38,614 nucleotides of DNA, from the NCBI GenBank assembly GCA_030145345.1, contig JAQYVT010000020.1, forward strand, positions 1-38,614, given 5' to 3'. The notes beneath the pieces were generated by a model. The model searched no databases. It saw only the letters and a list, made by a program, of their open reading frames with translations, and was not told the DNA's origin. This document shows positions 6,011 through 17,272 of the stretch, one piece after another. Position numbers and translations under genes: made by a program. The stretch's first letter is position 1; each line of letters begins with the position of its first letter. The DNA is from Desulfobacterales bacterium (GTDB lineage: Bacteria; Desulfobacterota; Desulfobacteria; Desulfobacterales; UBA11574).

Positions 6011-6655
6011 TCATGTGACGTCTTCCTGCCGCCCTATTTCTAAATCAAGGATCTTTGCGATTTCTTTCAAACTGTGTATATGAAACTCAGCGGAAAGGGA
6101 TCTGTTTTGATACGCCACAAACGGCACCCCCGCCGCTTTTGCCGCAACTTCGTCGAGGTTCGAATCCCCGATATATATCGCATGGTTCGATTCTATTCCA
6201 AAATGTTCCAGAACCTTGATCAGCGGGTCTGGGTGAGGCTTGGGGCGCTCCACGTCCATGGAACTGACCACAAGGTCAAAATACCCTTCCAGGCCGTGTT
6301 CCTTGAGAACCCGGTCCATGGTGTCCGATCGGTTGGTTGCAACTGCGGTTTTATATGTCGGCCTGAGCATTTTAAGTAGCTGTTTTAAATTGGGTTCCAT
6401 GACCATATATTTTAAAAACGGGAGATAGCTCATATTTTTCCGATAACTCTGGGCCGCCCGGATATCGTCCGGGTCATTAAAGAGGAATTCAATGGACTGG
6501 TCTGCGGTATGGCTGTGACAGTAAGCAAATTGATCGGGGGTCAATGCCGGCTGGCCGAAATGGTCCAATATCTGATTATAGTAAGCAATGTTTGCCTTTT
6601 TTGTGTCGAACATGACGCCGTCACAATCAAAAGCAACAACTTTGATATTTTTCAT
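6011..6655 (-). CDS. HAD-superfamily hydrolase, phosphoglycolate phosphatase-like
   Basis: A 214-residue HAD phosphatase. Motif I is VVAFDCDGVMFD, with nucleophile D10 and acid D12; motif II is the Thr of AVATNRSD; motif III is the Lys of ERPKPHPDP; motif IV is IYIGDSNLDE. The helical insert between motifs I and II is the subclass I cap of phosphoglycolate phosphatase and beta-phosphoglucomutase relatives, so a small phosphorylated metabolite is the likely substrate. I chose the ATG at 6653-6655 because motif I then falls at the usual distance from the N-terminus and the start lies one base after the stop of the selenoprotein gene. A further in-frame start at 6703 would lie inside that gene. 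The two are co-transcribed and probably coupled. Confidence 0.88.
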   Translation of the reverse strand: MKNIKVVAFDCDGVMFDTKKANIAYYNQILDHFGQPALTPDQFAYCHSHTADQSIEFLFNDPDDIRAAQSYRKNMSYLPFLKYMVMEPNLKQLLKMLRPTYKTAVATNRSDTMDRVLKEHGLEGYFDLVVSSMDVERPKPHPDPLIKVLEHFGIESNHAIYIGDSNLDEVAAKAAGVPFVAYQNRSLSAEFHIHSLKEIAKILDLEIGRQEDVT

Positions 6656-6656
6656 T

Positions 6657-7388
6657 TTATTTTTTTGGGTTTGCCGGCCGGTCTGAGATATAACCGTAAA
6701 CATAGATTTTAATCTCCGGCCGTAATTTGCTGTCCGTTGTTAATTTGATGGTATCGAAATAGCGACCCTTATCATTTTTCAGGTTTTCAACCGTCAGACC
6801 ATATTCCATATTTTCTGAGGATTTATTTTTTTCCAGCGAATAACGGATGTGTTTTCCATTAATTGCCGTGACGCCGGAAATTTTGAACGGATACTTTTTT
6901 TCAGGTATGATCTTTACGGTTGATTTTATTTTATCGCCGGAAAAACCGCGCAGCGTGACCCGCTTCGGTACGATGGTAACAAAGTTTTCGACATTACCAG
7001 AAACGGTCAAGTGAAGCACGGGTTTGTCGGGTGTATCGGTTTTGACCCGAATTGTTTTGGTGAGCGTTCTTCCACCGTATCCCGATGTATCGACTTTAAT
7101 AACAATCTTTCCCTCGCCGCCGGCGGGGATCTGTCTCGGGTATGAGACAGCGGTACACCCTCAGCCGGTTTTGACGCTCTCGATCTTCAGCAGAGCGGTT
7201 CCTTTGTTTTGTATGACAAAATCATGTGTTATTTTAGTGCCGTCTGTAACCGGAGCAAAGGTGTAACGGCTTTCCGGTACAACGGCGGATGGTGATTGAG
7301 GTGTTTGTTTCGAGACGCCAAACGCGCTGGTTTGGAAAAAAACCATGCAGAACAGTAGAAAAAAGGCAGCATAGATTTTAAATTTCAT
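6657..7388 (-). CDS. DUF1573-family exported protein, apparent selenoprotein (Sec76)
   Basis: Read as one 243-residue gene with an in-frame TGA at 7163-7161 decoded as selenocysteine. The ATG at 7386-7388 has AGGA upstream. Residues 1-24 form a signal peptide, then comes the DUF1573 core: THDFVIQNKGTALLKIESVKTG, Sec76, GCTAVSYP, IPAGGEGKI and the VKTDTPDKPVLHL strand. In the family the motif is Cys-Gly-Cys-Thr and the TGA lies exactly at the first Cys, giving U-G-C-T. The frame is unbroken for 167 codons after the TGA and the two halves are exactly in phase. A stem-loop follows the TGA. The Sec-Gly-Cys pair suggests thiol/selenol redox chemistry in the periplasm. Alternatives are a Cys-to-stop mutation or a sequencing error. 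The HAD gene starts one base downstream. Confidence 0.85.
7125..7163 (-). promoter_or_regulatory. Candidate bacterial SECIS for the DUF1573 gene
   Basis: Starting from the UGA (7163-7161), ten bases are followed by a perfect 7-bp stem, CTGTCTC (7150-7144) with GAGACAG (7137-7131), closed by a 6-nt loop (7143-7138). GGG at 7160-7158 can pair with CCC at 7128-7126 to give a lower stem. The apical loop lies about 18-23 nt past the UGA, within the range known for bacterial SECIS elements. It lacks a G in the first two loop positions, which many SECIS loops have. Confidence 0.6.
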
Positions 7389-7483
7389 TTTAAAAAATTC
7401 CTAGACATAATACGCTATAATACGGTTTAAAAAATTCGATTCTCGAGCCCATTATCCGGTTGTCCGACAGGGCATGAACAGCT

Positions 7484-7512
7484 TATTTAAGTTGCATCCT
7501 TTGGAATGTCAA
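7484..7512 (-). promoter_or_regulatory. Predicted sigma-70 promoter with overlapping direct repeat
   Basis: On the minus strand a perfect -35 hexamer TTGACA (7512-7507) is separated by 17 bases from TAAATA (7489-7484), placing a start near 7476, about 90 bases ahead of the DUF1573 start codon. A 10-bp direct repeat, GATGCAACTT, occurs at 7520-7511 and 7498-7489, exactly 22 bp apart (two helical turns). One copy touches the -35 and the other abuts the -10, as expected for an operator. The regulator is unknown. Confidence 0.55.
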
Positions 7513-7606
7513 GTTGCATCTTTTTATTTTAAGCCGACCCGTTCTGTTCGGCCTGTGCCAGGGTCGACACGGAAAAAGCCAGGCAAATCGTATCTGAATC
7601 CAGGAT

Positions 7607-10048
7607 TTAAGTCATAAAAAACGGGTCCACGTCCAGCACAACCTTGACATCCCGGTTTTGGATGGCTGCCCGGTTCTCAAACCACATCTTATGAAGAAAC
7701 CTGTGGAGCGGTTTTACATTTTGGCCTTTTAGTAATATTTGCCACCGGTAGTGGTTGGCGATCTTTGGAATCGGGGCTTCAATGGGGCCTAAAATCTCCA
7801 AAGATCTCAAGAAGGCGCTATCGGTTCTTTTTAAATCAAAGCAGAGGTCTCCCAGCGCCTGGGCATGGTGCCGGGTTTTTTCTTTGTTTTTCCCGGAAAT
7901 TTTAAGTTGGACCATCCTTGAAAATGGGGGATAATTAAGATTTTCGCGGAATCCGATCTCATCGTTGTAAAAGGCCTGAAAGTCCTGTGCGGTCGCATAT
8001 AAGATGCTGGAATGAATTGGGTTATAGGTTTGAAGGATTACATTTCCAGGTACAGACCCCCGCCCGGCACGCCCGGCGACCTGGGCCAGAAGCTGAAAGG
8101 TTCGTTCTGCGGCTCGAAAGTCGGGAAAGTTGAGAGAGAGGTCTGCACAGATAATCCCCACCAGGGTAATATTCGGATAGTCATGTCCTTTGGCCACCAT
8201 CTGAGTCCCCACCAAAATATCGATGGTTTGGTTTCTCAGGCCTTTTAATATTTTGATGATGGATCCTTTTCTCCGGGTGGTATCACGATCCATCCTGGCC
8301 ACGGTGGCATCCGGAAAAAGGGTCTTCACCGTAGATTCGATCTTTTCAGTGCCGAGTCCCAGCAGCCGGATCTTTGAGGACCCGCAGGTCTTGCAGTTCG
8401 ATACCGCCGCCCGTGTAAAACCACAGTAATGACATTTATATGCATTGGCCGTTTGGTGCAGTGTCAGAGAAATGTCACAGTTTTTACATTGTATGGCTTC
8501 ACCGCAGGCTGAGCAGACCGGATAGCTGGCGAAGCCCCGCCGGTTCAGAAAAAGGAGAACCTGCTCACCGTGTGCAAGGGTTGTTCTCATTGCCTCGTGG
8601 AGTTCGGGCGTAATAAAACGCCGGATTCCCCTGACATCTCTATTTTTTCGCAGATCGACCATTGTTATTTTGGGCATCGGTCGTTTTTCAACACGTTTCT
8701 TTAGTGTAACGCCCTTAAATTTATTTGTTTTAACATTATAGTAGGACTGTAGAGACGGCGTGGCGGATCCCAGAAGGGCAACGCCGTTTTGGAGCTTTGC
8801 CCTTACCACGGCAAGATCTCTGGCATTGTATCGCAAACCACTGTCCTGTTTGTAGGATGTGTCATGTTCTTCGTCGACGATGATAATTCCGATATTTTTA
8901 AACGGTGCAAAGACGGCAGATCTGGCACCAATGGCAATGGCGACCTCACCCCGGACAATTTGGGTCCACTGATCATAGCGTTCTCCGGGGGAAAGTGCGC
9001 TGTGAAGAACGGCGACGCCCTCACCAAATCGTGCCCGAAACCGCCGCTCCATCTGTGATATAAGGGCGATTTCAGGAACCAGAACTAAAACGGAATAACC
9101 GCCCTTGATGGCCTTTGCCGCAAGCTGCATGTAAACTTCGGTCTTGCCGCTGCCGGTCACGCCGGTTAAAAGGCAGGGTGAAAATTTTCGACCCAGAGAT
9201 GCCATTACGGTGGAGACCACCGTTGTCTGTTCTTGGGTCAGGCTGTGGGGAATGTCCGGGTTGATGGTTTCACCAAAGGGATCGCGATAAACCCTTTTAT
9301 AAAAAATTGAAATATAACCGTCCGCTTCTATACGTTTGATTAGGTTCGGGGCAGACGGAACCACGGCCTTTAATTTTCTCACCGAGATTTCACCCTGAGC
9401 TTCGATCATCTCAAGGATTTTTTTTCTTGAATCGGAAAGGCCGTCTACAGGCATATTTGAACCGGTCAACGCGACATGCCGTTCTACCTTGGGCTTTGTT
9501 GTTCCACCTTTAAGCTTACACGTATGCGCAATAAGCCCTTGACCTTCCATGGCATACATCAGGGCATTCGGGATTTGCTTATGGAGTTTTTTTCGGAGTT
9601 CCTTTAGGCGGCAGGGCGCTGCCGTCAGCAGATTTAAAATCTCGCTTTCCAAAGGTGTCGCCGAATTCTTGACAAGCGCTCGTTCCCCTTTTGCCGTAAG
9701 GGTCACAATATGATCGTCACAAACATTGAGTCCACCCGGCAGTGCGCACTTAATGACATCTCCGATGGGATGCAGGTAGTAATCGGCAATCCATCTAAAG
9801 AATGGTATCATGGATGAGGGAAACAGCGGTGCTTCGTCAAGGATATCCAGAACCGTTTTTATCTCTTCCGGATGGATGTTTTTGCAGAAACCCAAAATAT
9901 ATCCCGTTACCCTGCGCCGACCAAACGGAACCAGGACCCTTTTTCCTGTGGTGGCCAGGGCTGAAAGGTCTTCCGGAACGCTGTATGTATACGTGTTATG
10001 TACCGGAAGGGCTATGGCAACCTCTATGTAAATCGAAGGGGATGTCAC
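7607..10048 (-). CDS. priA: Primosomal protein N' (replication restart helicase PriA)
   Basis: Full-length (813 aa) 3'-5' superfamily 2 helicase that reloads the replisome at stalled forks. The N-terminal 3'-DNA-end-binding domain (about 1-110, with YTYSVPEDL and GKRVLVPFGRR) is followed by a winged-helix region. The helicase core has Walker A GVTGSGKT (K302), the DEEH box (392-395), LLGSATPSL and the late motif QVAGRAGRG. Eight zinc-binding Cys of the PriA insertion are present (C512, C515, C521, C524, C539, C542, C552, C555). The start is GTG at 10048; no better start is visible. Convergent or co-oriented neighbours are far away, so it is probably transcribed alone or with the DUF1573/HAD pair about 220 bp downstream. 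Confidence 0.97.
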   Translation of the reverse strand: MTSPSIYIEVAIALPVHNTYTYSVPEDLSALATTGKRVLVPFGRRRVTGYILGFCKNIHPEEIKTVLDILDEAPLFPSSMIPFFRWIADYYLHPIGDVIKCALPGGLNVCDDHIVTLTAKGERALVKNSATPLESEILNLLTAAPCRLKELRKKLHKQIPNALMYAMEGQGLIAHTCKLKGGTTKPKVERHVALTGSNMPVDGLSDSRKKILEMIEAQGEISVRKLKAVVPSAPNLIKRIEADGYISIFYKRVYRDPFGETINPDIPHSLTQEQTTVVSTVMASLGRKFSPCLLTGVTGSGKTEVYMQLAAKAIKGGYSVLVLVPEIALISQMERRFRARFGEGVAVLHSALSPGERYDQWTQIVRGEVAIAIGARSAVFAPFKNIGIIIVDEEHDTSYKQDSGLRYNARDLAVVRAKLQNGVALLGSATPSLQSYYNVKTNKFKGVTLKKRVEKRPMPKITMVDLRKNRDVRGIRRFITPELHEAMRTTLAHGEQVLLFLNRRGFASYPVCSACGEAIQCKNCDISLTLHQTANAYKCHYCGFTRAAVSNCKTCGSSKIRLLGLGTEKIESTVKTLFPDATVARMDRDTTRRKGSIIKILKGLRNQTIDILVGTQMVAKGHDYPNITLVGIICADLSLNFPDFRAAERTFQLLAQVAGRAGRGSVPGNVILQTYNPIHSSILYATAQDFQAFYNDEIGFRENLNYPPFSRMVQLKISGKNKEKTRHHAQALGDLCFDLKRTDSAFLRSLEILGPIEAPIPKIANHYRWQILLKGQNVKPLHRFLHKMWFENRAAIQNRDVKVVLDVDPFFMT

Positions 10049-13832: not shown

Positions 13833-14891
13833 TTATTTAAATACCAGATGCGTCGCCGCTTTCACTTCACGAACACGGCCGATGATTTTGGCCGCCGCCA
13901 CCTTCCCGGCATGTAATGCTTTGATGAGATTTTCTCCCTGGGCTTCAGATACTGCCACTAAAAGGCCGCCGCTGGTTTGCGGGTCAAATAAAATTTCCTG
14001 ATGCCACAACGGAACGTCGGCCTCAATCCGCATATATTTTTCCACCATCTGTCTGTTGGAGGCATTTACGCCGGTTCTCATCCCTTTTTTATAGACCGCC
14101 AGCGCCTCGTCCAGGATCGGTAAACGGGCAACTTCGATTTCCAGGCAGACTTCAGAAGCTTTGGCCATTTCAAAGCCGTGCCCGGACAACCCGAATCCGG
14201 TTACATCGGTGGCGGCATGTATGTCGAAACCCGCCATGACCTCAGCAGCAGTTCGGTTGAGGGTTGAAGTGGCTGCCACACAGGCATCCATGGCCTTCTT
14301 GGAGACCCATAGTTTCAAATTAGCATTGAACAGTACGCCGCTTCCGATGGGTTTGGTGAGAATCAACACATCTCCCGGCCGGGCGCCCCGGTTGGTCCAG
14401 AATTTGTCGGGATGGACGACGCCGGTCACCGCTAACCCGAATTTGGGTTCTTCGTCTTCGATGGAATGCCCCCCTGCCAGCACCGCTCCTGCTTCGGTAA
14501 TCTTGTTTAAAGCGCCGGCGACGATTTGATGCAGGACATCCAAGGGGAGCTTCTTGGCGGGAAAACTGACCAGATTCAGGCAGGCGATGGGACGGCCGCC
14601 CATGGCATAAACATCGCTGATGGCGTTTGCAGCCGCAATCTGGCCGAATACATACGGATCGTTCACCGGGGGCGTGATATAATCGGCCGTCATAATGACG
14701 GCCAGATCGTCGGTCAATCGATAAATGCCCGCATCATCACTGGTTTCATAGCCCACCAGTAAGTTGGGATCTTCATGTTTGGGTAAACCCGCCAACAGAT
14801 TACCGAGCCCGACCGGGTCGATTTTTGCGGCTCAACCGCAGGTTTTTGACAGGCTCAGCAGGGTCGGCTTTTTGAAAAGGTTTAGTTTCAC
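13833..14891 (-). CDS. selD: Selenide, water dikinase (selenophosphate synthase), Sec-containing
   Basis: SelD makes selenophosphate from selenide and ATP, the Se donor for Sec-tRNA. The usual reading would start at TTG 14795 and lose the active site. Extending upstream in frame through a TGA at 14834-14832 gives a GTG start at 14891 with GGAG 10 bases ahead. The N-terminus then reads MKLNLFKK...SKTCGUAAKIDP, where Sec20 replaces the catalytic Cys of the SelD C-G-(C/U)-A-A-K-I motif and Lys23 is the conserved Lys. The remainder is typical: ETSDDAGIYRL, AMGGRPIACL, AGGHSIEDEEPKFGL, DVTGFGLSGHGFEMA and FDPQTSGGLL. Product length is 352 aa. It is the last gene of a minus-strand group with C_GCAxxG, rhodanese and MauE-like genes. 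Confidence 0.95.
14805..14834 (-). promoter_or_regulatory. Candidate bacterial SECIS in selD
   Basis: The UGA itself begins a stem: GAGCC (14833-14829) pairs with GGCTC (14809-14805). Above an asymmetric bulge, CGAC (14820-14817) pairs with GTCG (14813-14810) around a 3-nt loop, CCG. The apical loop is about 15-20 nt past the UGA, in the expected range for bacterial Sec insertion elements. Confidence 0.6.
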
Positions 14892-15018: not shown

Positions 15019-15597
15019 TTATGACCGAAAGATGTTGGTCAGTTGATGGATCCGTCCATCGATATTGGAATCGGATTGATTCACATAGGTCCAGTCAGCC
15101 TTTTCAATCAGTTCTGATTTTTGTTCCAGGATACGGCGGGCGGCCTGTTCGGCAACGGTTCCCGCCTTTTGGGCACACAGTCGGTAGTAGCGCTGTGTTC
15201 CGAGCTTGATATTCTTCGTTAACACCCGGCAGCAGGTGGCACCGAAACAGGCCTTGAACCGGTCGTGAAGTTCCCTGGAAGCCTTGTAAACCGCTCGGTT
15301 GTTGAAAAATCCGGGGCCATTGCGCCCCAAAAACAACCCCAGGGAAATAATTCCGGCGCTTAACGCGCCGCACGTACAGCCGCTGCCCCCGAATCCTTCC
15401 GGCAAACCCGAGGTGAGCCGCACGGCCATCTCAGGAGACAGACCGCCTTTGAGTCCTTGATTCAGGACCGTCAGAACCGCCTCGGAACACATGAGTTGTT
15501 TGGTCGTGAACAGGTTTTCGGTACGTTGCCGGATTTTTTTAATCAGTGCTTCCGCACTGCGGTCCACACGGTAATTTTCGGGGTTTGGTCGTATCAT
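15019..15597 (-). CDS. C_GCAxxG_C_C family redox-type protein
   Basis: A 192-residue protein with the Cys pattern that names this family: MCSEAVLTVLNQGL near residue 36, then GFGGSGCTCGALSAGIISLGL, then CFGATCCRVL and a final YRLCAQKA. Members are thought to carry redox-active or metal-binding cysteines and are common in anaerobes; a precise activity is not established. No signal peptide is seen, so it is cytoplasmic. The ATG at 15595-15597 has a weak ribosome site. It lies 80 bp after the rhodanese gene, with a hairpin between, and 127 bp before selD on the same strand, so a link to selenium or sulfur handling is possible but inferred. Confidence 0.85.
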   Translation of the reverse strand: MIRPNPENYRVDRSAEALIKKIRQRTENLFTTKQLMCSEAVLTVLNQGLKGGLSPEMAVRLTSGLPEGFGGSGCTCGALSAGIISLGLFLGRNGPGFFNNRAVYKASRELHDRFKACFGATCCRVLTKNIKLGTQRYYRLCAQKAGTVAEQAARRILEQKSELIEKADWTYVNQSDSNIDGRIHQLTNIFRS

Positions 15598-15622
15598 AAT
15601 ACATTCTTAAAGACATACGACA

Positions 15623-15648
15623 CCGAACCTGGGATATCACGGGTTCGG
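15623..15648. other. Hairpin between rhodanese and C_GCAxxG genes
   Basis: CCGAACC (15623-15629) and GGTTCGG (15642-15648) form a 7-bp inverted repeat with a 12-nt loop. There is no T-run on the minus strand, so it is more likely an RNA-stability or processing structure than a terminator. Confidence 0.45.
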
Positions 15649-15677
15649 CGTGTGTGCCCCTGACCGATCTCGAATCC

Positions 15678-16211
15678 TTATTTTGCCTTCTCTACCGGAT
15701 AGTCCGCGCCTTTCCAGGCAAAAATTCCGCCCGGAAAGCGCAGAACATTTTTGTAGCCCAGCTTCTGGGCCCACATGGCCCCATTGTGGCTGCGGGTACA
15801 CTTTACAAACCCGCAGTAGATGACGATGGTTTTTGACAGGTCGGGACCGAGCAGCGCCTTGAAATCGTCAATGGTTTTTCCGTCCGTCTGTTTGGTATCC
15901 CACGCTTTCATCTCGGGAATGGGAAACAGAAACTGCTCGGCACCGGGAACATGCGTTTTTTTATAGCTGGCATCATAGGGCATGGTATCGATAATAAGAA
16001 TATCCTTGCCGGAATCGATCAGGTCTTTAAGTTCCTTGGTTGTGATCACGTCGTAACCGCCCTGCTGGACTTCCCGGACCAACTTGACGGTTTCCTGCTC
16101 TTTCACGACCTCTTTTTCAAATTTGTTTTTGGCGAATGCCGGATTTGCCGGTTGCATCAGAAACAGTCCAACGGCCATAAAGCCGAAAATAAATTTTCCC
16201 ATTCGAATCAT
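15678..16211 (-). CDS. Exported rhodanese-domain protein
   Basis: A 177-residue protein with a signal peptide (KFIFGFMAVGLFLMQPANPAFA) and one rhodanese domain. ITTKELKDLIDSGKDILIIDTMP opens the domain, VPGAEQFLFP follows, and the active-site loop is VIYCGFVKCTRSHNGA. That loop has two cysteines (C-x4-C), and the first aligns with the persulfide-forming Cys. The domain closes with FPGGIFAWKGADYPVEK. It should act in the periplasm on sulfur, or by analogy selenium, transfer. The start at ATG 16209-16211 is chosen over GTG 16214 because AAGGAGG is then well spaced and the ATG overlaps the MauE-like stop (TGATG). Tight coupling to that membrane protein suggests they work together. Confidence 0.88.
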   Translation of the reverse strand: MIRMGKFIFGFMAVGLFLMQPANPAFAKNKFEKEVVKEQETVKLVREVQQGGYDVITTKELKDLIDSGKDILIIDTMPYDASYKKTHVPGAEQFLFPIPEMKAWDTKQTDGKTIDDFKALLGPDLSKTIVIYCGFVKCTRSHNGAMWAQKLGYKNVLRFPGGIFAWKGADYPVEKAK

Positions 16212-16768
16212 CACGCCTCCTTCTTTTTAAAGCTTCTAAACCGATTTGTTAACGGTTTGGGTGTCATGCTTTTGCGATACCGCCAAAAATAAAGGTAAAA
16301 GATACCCAACATCATGGCCATGTCCTGTAAAAGGGCCGATCGCAGCCCGCGAGAAGCCCGGGCTTCCGAATCGTTGGGACCCAAACACCCGCAATCGACA
16401 TCGAGTCCCAGCCAGATACCATAACTCAAAATAACGATAAAAAACCCCAACAAGCCGGTGACGACGGCCAGAGATCCACGGATATCGGCCAAGAGTCCCA
16501 GTCCCGCGAGAACTTCTATTATGGACAAGAAAATGGCCGCCGTCAGGGTCAAGGGATCGGGCAACAAACCATAATTTTCGATAATAACAGCAAAAAATTG
16601 GGGGGCCATTAGCTTGGAGATGCCGGACCATAGAAAAATAACACTCAACAGGATACGGAAAACGTTGTAAATCAAGGTGGATAAAAAGATATTTCTCAGG
16701 TCATGAAGCCCTTCATCTTTTCGGCTGGCAATCGCTCCACCTGCTTCACCCATTATTGAACGCATCAT
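16211..16768 (-). CDS. MauE/DoxX-like integral membrane protein
   Basis: A 185-residue inner-membrane protein with four hydrophobic segments: FRILLSVIFLWSGISKL, LTLTAAIFLSIIEVLAGLGLL, LAVVTGLLGFFIVILSYGIWL and DMAMMLGIFYLYFW. The DVDCGCLGP motif after the third segment is the conserved Cys-Gly-Cys of MauE-type proteins, which pass reducing or oxidising equivalents across the membrane. The F-x-W-S-G-x-x-K motif early on is shared with DoxX. ATG 16766-16768 is preferred to the TTG two codons upstream. It is the first gene of the group leading to rhodanese, C_GCAxxG and selD. A role in thiol redox for the exported rhodanese is an inference from the gene coupling. Confidence 0.82.
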   Translation of the reverse strand: MMRSIMGEAGGAIASRKDEGLHDLRNIFLSTLIYNVFRILLSVIFLWSGISKLMAPQFFAVIIENYGLLPDPLTLTAAIFLSIIEVLAGLGLLADIRGSLAVVTGLLGFFIVILSYGIWLGLDVDCGCLGPNDSEARASRGLRSALLQDMAMMLGIFYLYFWRYRKSMTPKPLTNRFRSFKKKEA

Positions 16769-17272
16769 TTCCAAATTTTCCTGATTCAGGTTGGATGTTA
16801 CACCCCCATGCGGCGAAAATGCGCTGTGGGATGTTAAGGACCGTTTGATAAGCGGTTAAATTTCACACCGACATGAACTGCAACATCAACCGCATACCCC
16901 GCAAGCGTATTGAAACGAAGTTTTCCTCGTGAAACCTATCGGTCTTTTCTGGTTAACCGGGGTTTAAATTGCGTTTCAACGGGGCTGCAGGGACCCTCAA
17001 ATTTTACATGGGAGAAATATAGTATAAGGATAGGCGATGTGTAAAATTGATAATTTCAATACTTGGGCTGGAAATGATTGACCCTGTCGATGCCATGAAG
17101 AGATTAAGCCTGCGCTCGAATCTTATGGGCTCGAAAAAAACTTTTTACGAGTCCGTCAGCGTTAACAGCTTGATTTTTTATATTTCCAAGTTTAAGGTCT
17201 TATGGGACAATAGATAAACGCGCTTCGTTGGGCGGCAGATGAATCCTATAATATTTATTTATCGGTGAAAAA
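16769..17272. other. Intergenic region with solitary repeat end at 17140-17158
   Basis: No coding region is convincing in these 504 bp between divergent genes. It contains one end (ACTTTTTACGAGTCCGTCA, 17140-17158) related to the outer arm of the fold-back element at 5105-5265, without its partner arm. Near the right end, TATAAT at 17247-17252 is a consensus -10 for the following plus-strand gene, but the -35 position holds only TTCGTT. Confidence 0.5.

Follow-up and report, generated by a model that had tools for sequence, protein, structure and literature searches.

The first DUF1573 selenoprotein was, according to later papers, described by Zhang and Gladyshev in 2007, and the original description of OS_HP2 is said to concern an organism of the Olavius-associated kind. 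In two reviews (PMC9312934 and PMC13188914), a DUF1573 domain protein (PF07610) with the motif UGC stands among the known selenoproteins, credited in both to Zhang and Gladyshev 2007, and a 2008 survey (PMC2398784) gives the entry OS_HP2 as pfam07610 with UxC. The sole other paper found to name DUF1573 (PMC10434189) reports just an iron-dependent expression change in a Bacteroides gene cluster. NCBIfam carries the family as NF041425, "OS_HP2 family (seleno)protein", one feature of which is a Sec or Cys residue opening the motif U/C-G-C. The OS_HP2 selenoprotein family has been described since 2007–2008, and it is common among the relatives of the host treated here.

We analysed a 38,614-nucleotide stretch of DNA from a Desulfobacterales bacterium (hereafter, the window), in which a gene interrupted by TGA almost certainly encodes a member of the OS_HP2 (DUF1573) family with the UGA decoded as selenocysteine (Sec). 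The first-pass annotation knew of no described DUF1573 selenoprotein, a claim of novelty that fails because the gene product matches NF041425 and because the reviews and the survey already list such a protein. The present analysis adds the conserved priA–OS_HP2–HAD gene order, a model with two Ig/PapD-like domains, a fusion to OmpA in a relative, and, in three distant loci, a DsbA-like neighbor with the motif UPYC.

An OS_HP2 gene with one in-frame UGA

Translation of the window gives a single frame of 243 codons with one in-frame TGA (Table 1), which falls exactly where the CGCT motif of DUF1573 has its first Cys, the joined frame reading ...KIESVKTG-U-GCTAVSYPRQIPAGGEG... around it. The joined 243-residue protein matches PF07610 (DUF1573) at residues 39–133 with 67.1 bits (E 1.5e-18), above the gathering cut-off of 26.1 bits, and a six-frame search of the genome returned this gene, with one TGA inside, as the only DUF1573 match. 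The initial assignment of the TGA to the first Cys of CGCT, with both halves in the same frame, is confirmed in this way. Against NF041425 the protein scores 147.2 bits, compared with a curated cut-off of 100, over the whole profile (residues 37–134), and the Sec/Cys feature is present: residue 76 is the TGA codon, and GCT comes next. In comparison with the described family, the domain, the Sec in place of the leading Cys of CGCT and the U-G-C motif are the same, and no difference of kind was found; the homologue of the Olavius-associated Delta 1 bacterium (L060), found in a genome scan, is 53% identical and has its TGA at the same place. The non-Sec DUF1573 (PF07610) proteins share the domain, with Cys replacing Sec in the two Cys forms, L096 (CGCT) and L116 (CACA).

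Table 1 Features on the analysed DNA, in window positions
Feature	Position	Strand	Details
OS_HP2/DUF1573 selenoprotein gene	6657..7388	-	243 codons + TAA; ATG 7388-7386
In-frame UGA, read as selenocysteine	7161..7163	-	residue 76, position 1 of U-G-C-T
N-terminal hydrophobic stretch, putative signal peptide	7317..7388	-	residues 1-24; from sequence and model helix 2-20
OS_HP2/DUF1573 domain, first Ig/PapD-like beta-sandwich, bearing U-G-C	6987..7280	-	from profile and model
SECIS-like hairpin	7131..7150	-	CUGUCUC-AUACCC-GAGACAG; starts 10 nt after the UGA codon; covariation
HAD-type phosphatase gene (HAD_2), conserved downstream neighbor	6011..6655	-	probable start ATG 6655-6653
priA, conserved upstream neighbor	7607..10048	-	from locus comparison
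selD in-frame TGA (Sec)	14832..14834	-	within CGUAAK; selD body 13833-14831 and upstream

Selenocysteine machinery of the host

The host encodes the whole bacterial selenoprotein gene set, that is, selA (611 bits), selB (384 bits), tRNA-Sec (selC, 75 bits) and selD. The earlier expectation that this host decodes UGA as Sec, open to refutation by a genome lacking selA, selB or selC, is thus upheld, all three having been located. The selD gene itself contains an in-frame TGA in its active-site motif, and a Sec-bearing SelD with CGUAAK is a kind of SelD already known.

Conservation of the UGA codon and a hairpin 3' of it

The OS_HP2 family was found by genome search in 343 of the 389 genomes of the same order. 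Among the best 150 places listed for the order, a sample biased by having been ranked by score, 138 contain exactly one in-frame TGA and 12 contain none; elsewhere in the phylum, TGA forms occur in other families too, together with many forms that have no TGA. In the extracted loci the TGA occupies the same codon and is followed by Gly-Cys, with the same flanking residues in dozens of relatives, and for this reason it is not a matter of chance. Homologues with TGA and homologues with Cys at residue 76 both exist, and the region around this residue, for which unrelated homologues would have been a contrary sign, aligns cleanly: U/C76 and C78 are invariant in an alignment of 38 sequences, the two Cys forms included. 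Downstream of the UGA, comparison of the window with four relatives gives a dN/dS of about 0.2–0.4, and the sequence 3' of the codon is, on these estimates, under purifying selection.

The hairpin that follows the UGA codon shows covariation among 60 sequences, in which 85% of the cells are paired and 41 cells are changed on both sides, as against a shuffled mean of 13.5; the covariation score was reached by none of 500 shuffles. Sliding the pairing partner by 1–3 columns lowers the pairing to 26–46%. RNAalifold, unaided, recovers the inner five pairs, which carry the covariation signal, the outer two being frequently open in relatives, and the fold of the single sequence is just mildly better than its shuffles (z -2.1). 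Bacterial SECIS models have a G in the first two positions of the apical loop; the loop here (AUACCC) begins without one, as does that of many relatives. Rfam, applied to the window at gathering thresholds, returned no match. We regard the hairpin as a candidate SECIS, which probably serves SelB.

That the UGA might instead be a true stop or a sequencing error, leaving a pseudogene or two separate genes, has nothing in its favor except the stop itself and is exceedingly improbable, given the same UGA in many independent genomes, the purifying selection after it, the covarying hairpin and the presence of the Sec genes; we rejected pseudogene and error on the conservation of the UGA, the downstream selection and the Sec machinery. 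The substitution of Sec for the first Cys of CGCT, as first annotated, is accordingly supported by the machinery, the conserved UGA, the covarying hairpin and the purifying selection.

Predicted structure and location

The AlphaFold2 model computed on the alignment (pLDDT 93) comprises an N-terminal helix (residues 2–20) and two beta-sandwich domains, both predicted to be Ig/PapD-like, with the U-G-C placed on the first. Residues 34–136 resemble Ig domains of the PapD-like / ASPM-SPD2-Hydin kind, with matches to VesB (4lk4; Z 12.4, rmsd 1.9 over 96 residues) and HYDIN (2e6j; Z 10.8, with an rmsd of 2.0 over 99), the likeness to VesB, HYDIN and PapD being one of fold alone, with no function implied. 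Both domains match a Porphyromonas gingivalis structure of Ig-like fold (2qsv; Z 11.1, with a poor global rmsd of 12.3 over 194), which is also the best sequence-profile match, a weak one (E 0.0013).

With its putative signal peptide, the OS_HP2 product is predicted to be exported, most probably to the periplasm. In the related locus L048 (1174–2373, minus strand), an OmpA domain is fused ahead of the TGA-containing DUF1573 domain, and a periplasmic location may therefore be assigned to the domain. Two further loci, L044 and L082, look by eye similar to this OmpA fusion.

The two Ig-like domains (pLDDT 93), the PapD-, HYDIN- and VesB-like matches and the OmpA fusion would all suit a protein that serves in the periplasm as an Ig/PapD-like scaffold or a chaperone-like binder; Sec would then be decoded, and the U-G-C would only form a fixed selenylsulfide. 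Sec is costly, yet it has been retained across the order, and fixed bridges seldom need it; we consider such a structural role unlikely.

Gene neighborhood

The ATG of the HAD phosphatase gene (6655) begins one base past the OS_HP2 stop, which suggests that the two genes are translationally coupled. Of the loci of the order that extend far enough, nearly all have the phosphatase gene downstream and most have priA upstream, in a comparison that contains some genomes twice. The order priA–OS_HP2–HAD (window positions 6011–10048, minus strand) is thus kept across much of the taxonomic order, and it breaks down in more distant loci. Three of these distant loci, L081, L085 and L086, which are similar to one another, encode a DUF1573 protein that is longer (about 443 aa) and also contains a TGA; directly downstream lies a gene for a DsbA-like thioredoxin, which has an in-frame TGA of its own in the motif UPYC. 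The L085 copy of this thioredoxin, tested against Pfam, scores 93 bits for Thioredoxin_4 and 81 bits for DSBA. When all fetched loci were scanned with one motif pattern, by which other forms could be missed, a CxxC/UxxC thioredoxin-like motif near the gene appeared only in these three.

The neighborhood also bears on whether the U-G-C, with Sec decoded, binds a soft metal ion (e.g., Hg, Cu, or Zn) and performs no redox chemistry. CxC pairs often bind metals, and the ORF upstream of the gene in one relative, L099, resembles by eye a cation-efflux protein; in the order, the neighbors are priA and the HAD phosphatase, with no metal genes, and the DsbA-like UPYC protein in the three distant loci points rather to thiol redox. 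We therefore hold metal binding to be quite unlikely; together with the structural selenylsulfide, it is the main rival to a redox role.

Proposed function

The preferred explanation, to which we assign a probability of about 0.65, is that the gene encodes an exported, Sec-decoded OS_HP2 protein with a thiol-redox role of its U-G-C in the periplasm, a role that we infer from three features: Sec is used, the U/C pair is invariant, and a DsbA-like neighbor occurs. The first-pass suggestion of a redox-active U-G-C is on this view plausible. In the predicted course of events, SelB would read the UGA as Sec with the hairpin acting as SECIS, and the product would be exported to the periplasm, where the U-G-C, carried by the first of the two Ig/PapD-like domains, would cycle between the selenol/thiol and selenylsulfide states. 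OS_HP2 would thereby act as a thiol-disulfide reductase or an electron carrier, possibly with DsbA-like partners. The DsbA-like neighbor is confined to the three mutually similar loci, most of the order having priA and the HAD phosphatase, and these latter neighbors say nothing about redox. More specifically, OS_HP2 might be a U-G-C oxidoreductase built on an Ig fold and not on a thioredoxin fold, acting in a relay in the periplasm with the Sec-containing DsbA-like protein as its partner, substrate or electron donor, a speculation that we put forward as rather unlikely. The priA–OS_HP2–HAD order, and the DsbA-like UPYC neighbor in the distant branch, provide testable leads on the function of OS_HP2.

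Genes adjoining selD

Adjoining selD, at 15019–16774 on the minus strand, are genes for a C-GCAxxG-C-C family protein, a rhodanese and a MauE/DoxX membrane protein; no in-frame TGA extension was found in these three. The rhodanese resembles the rhodanese part of the selenoprotein TsoB.
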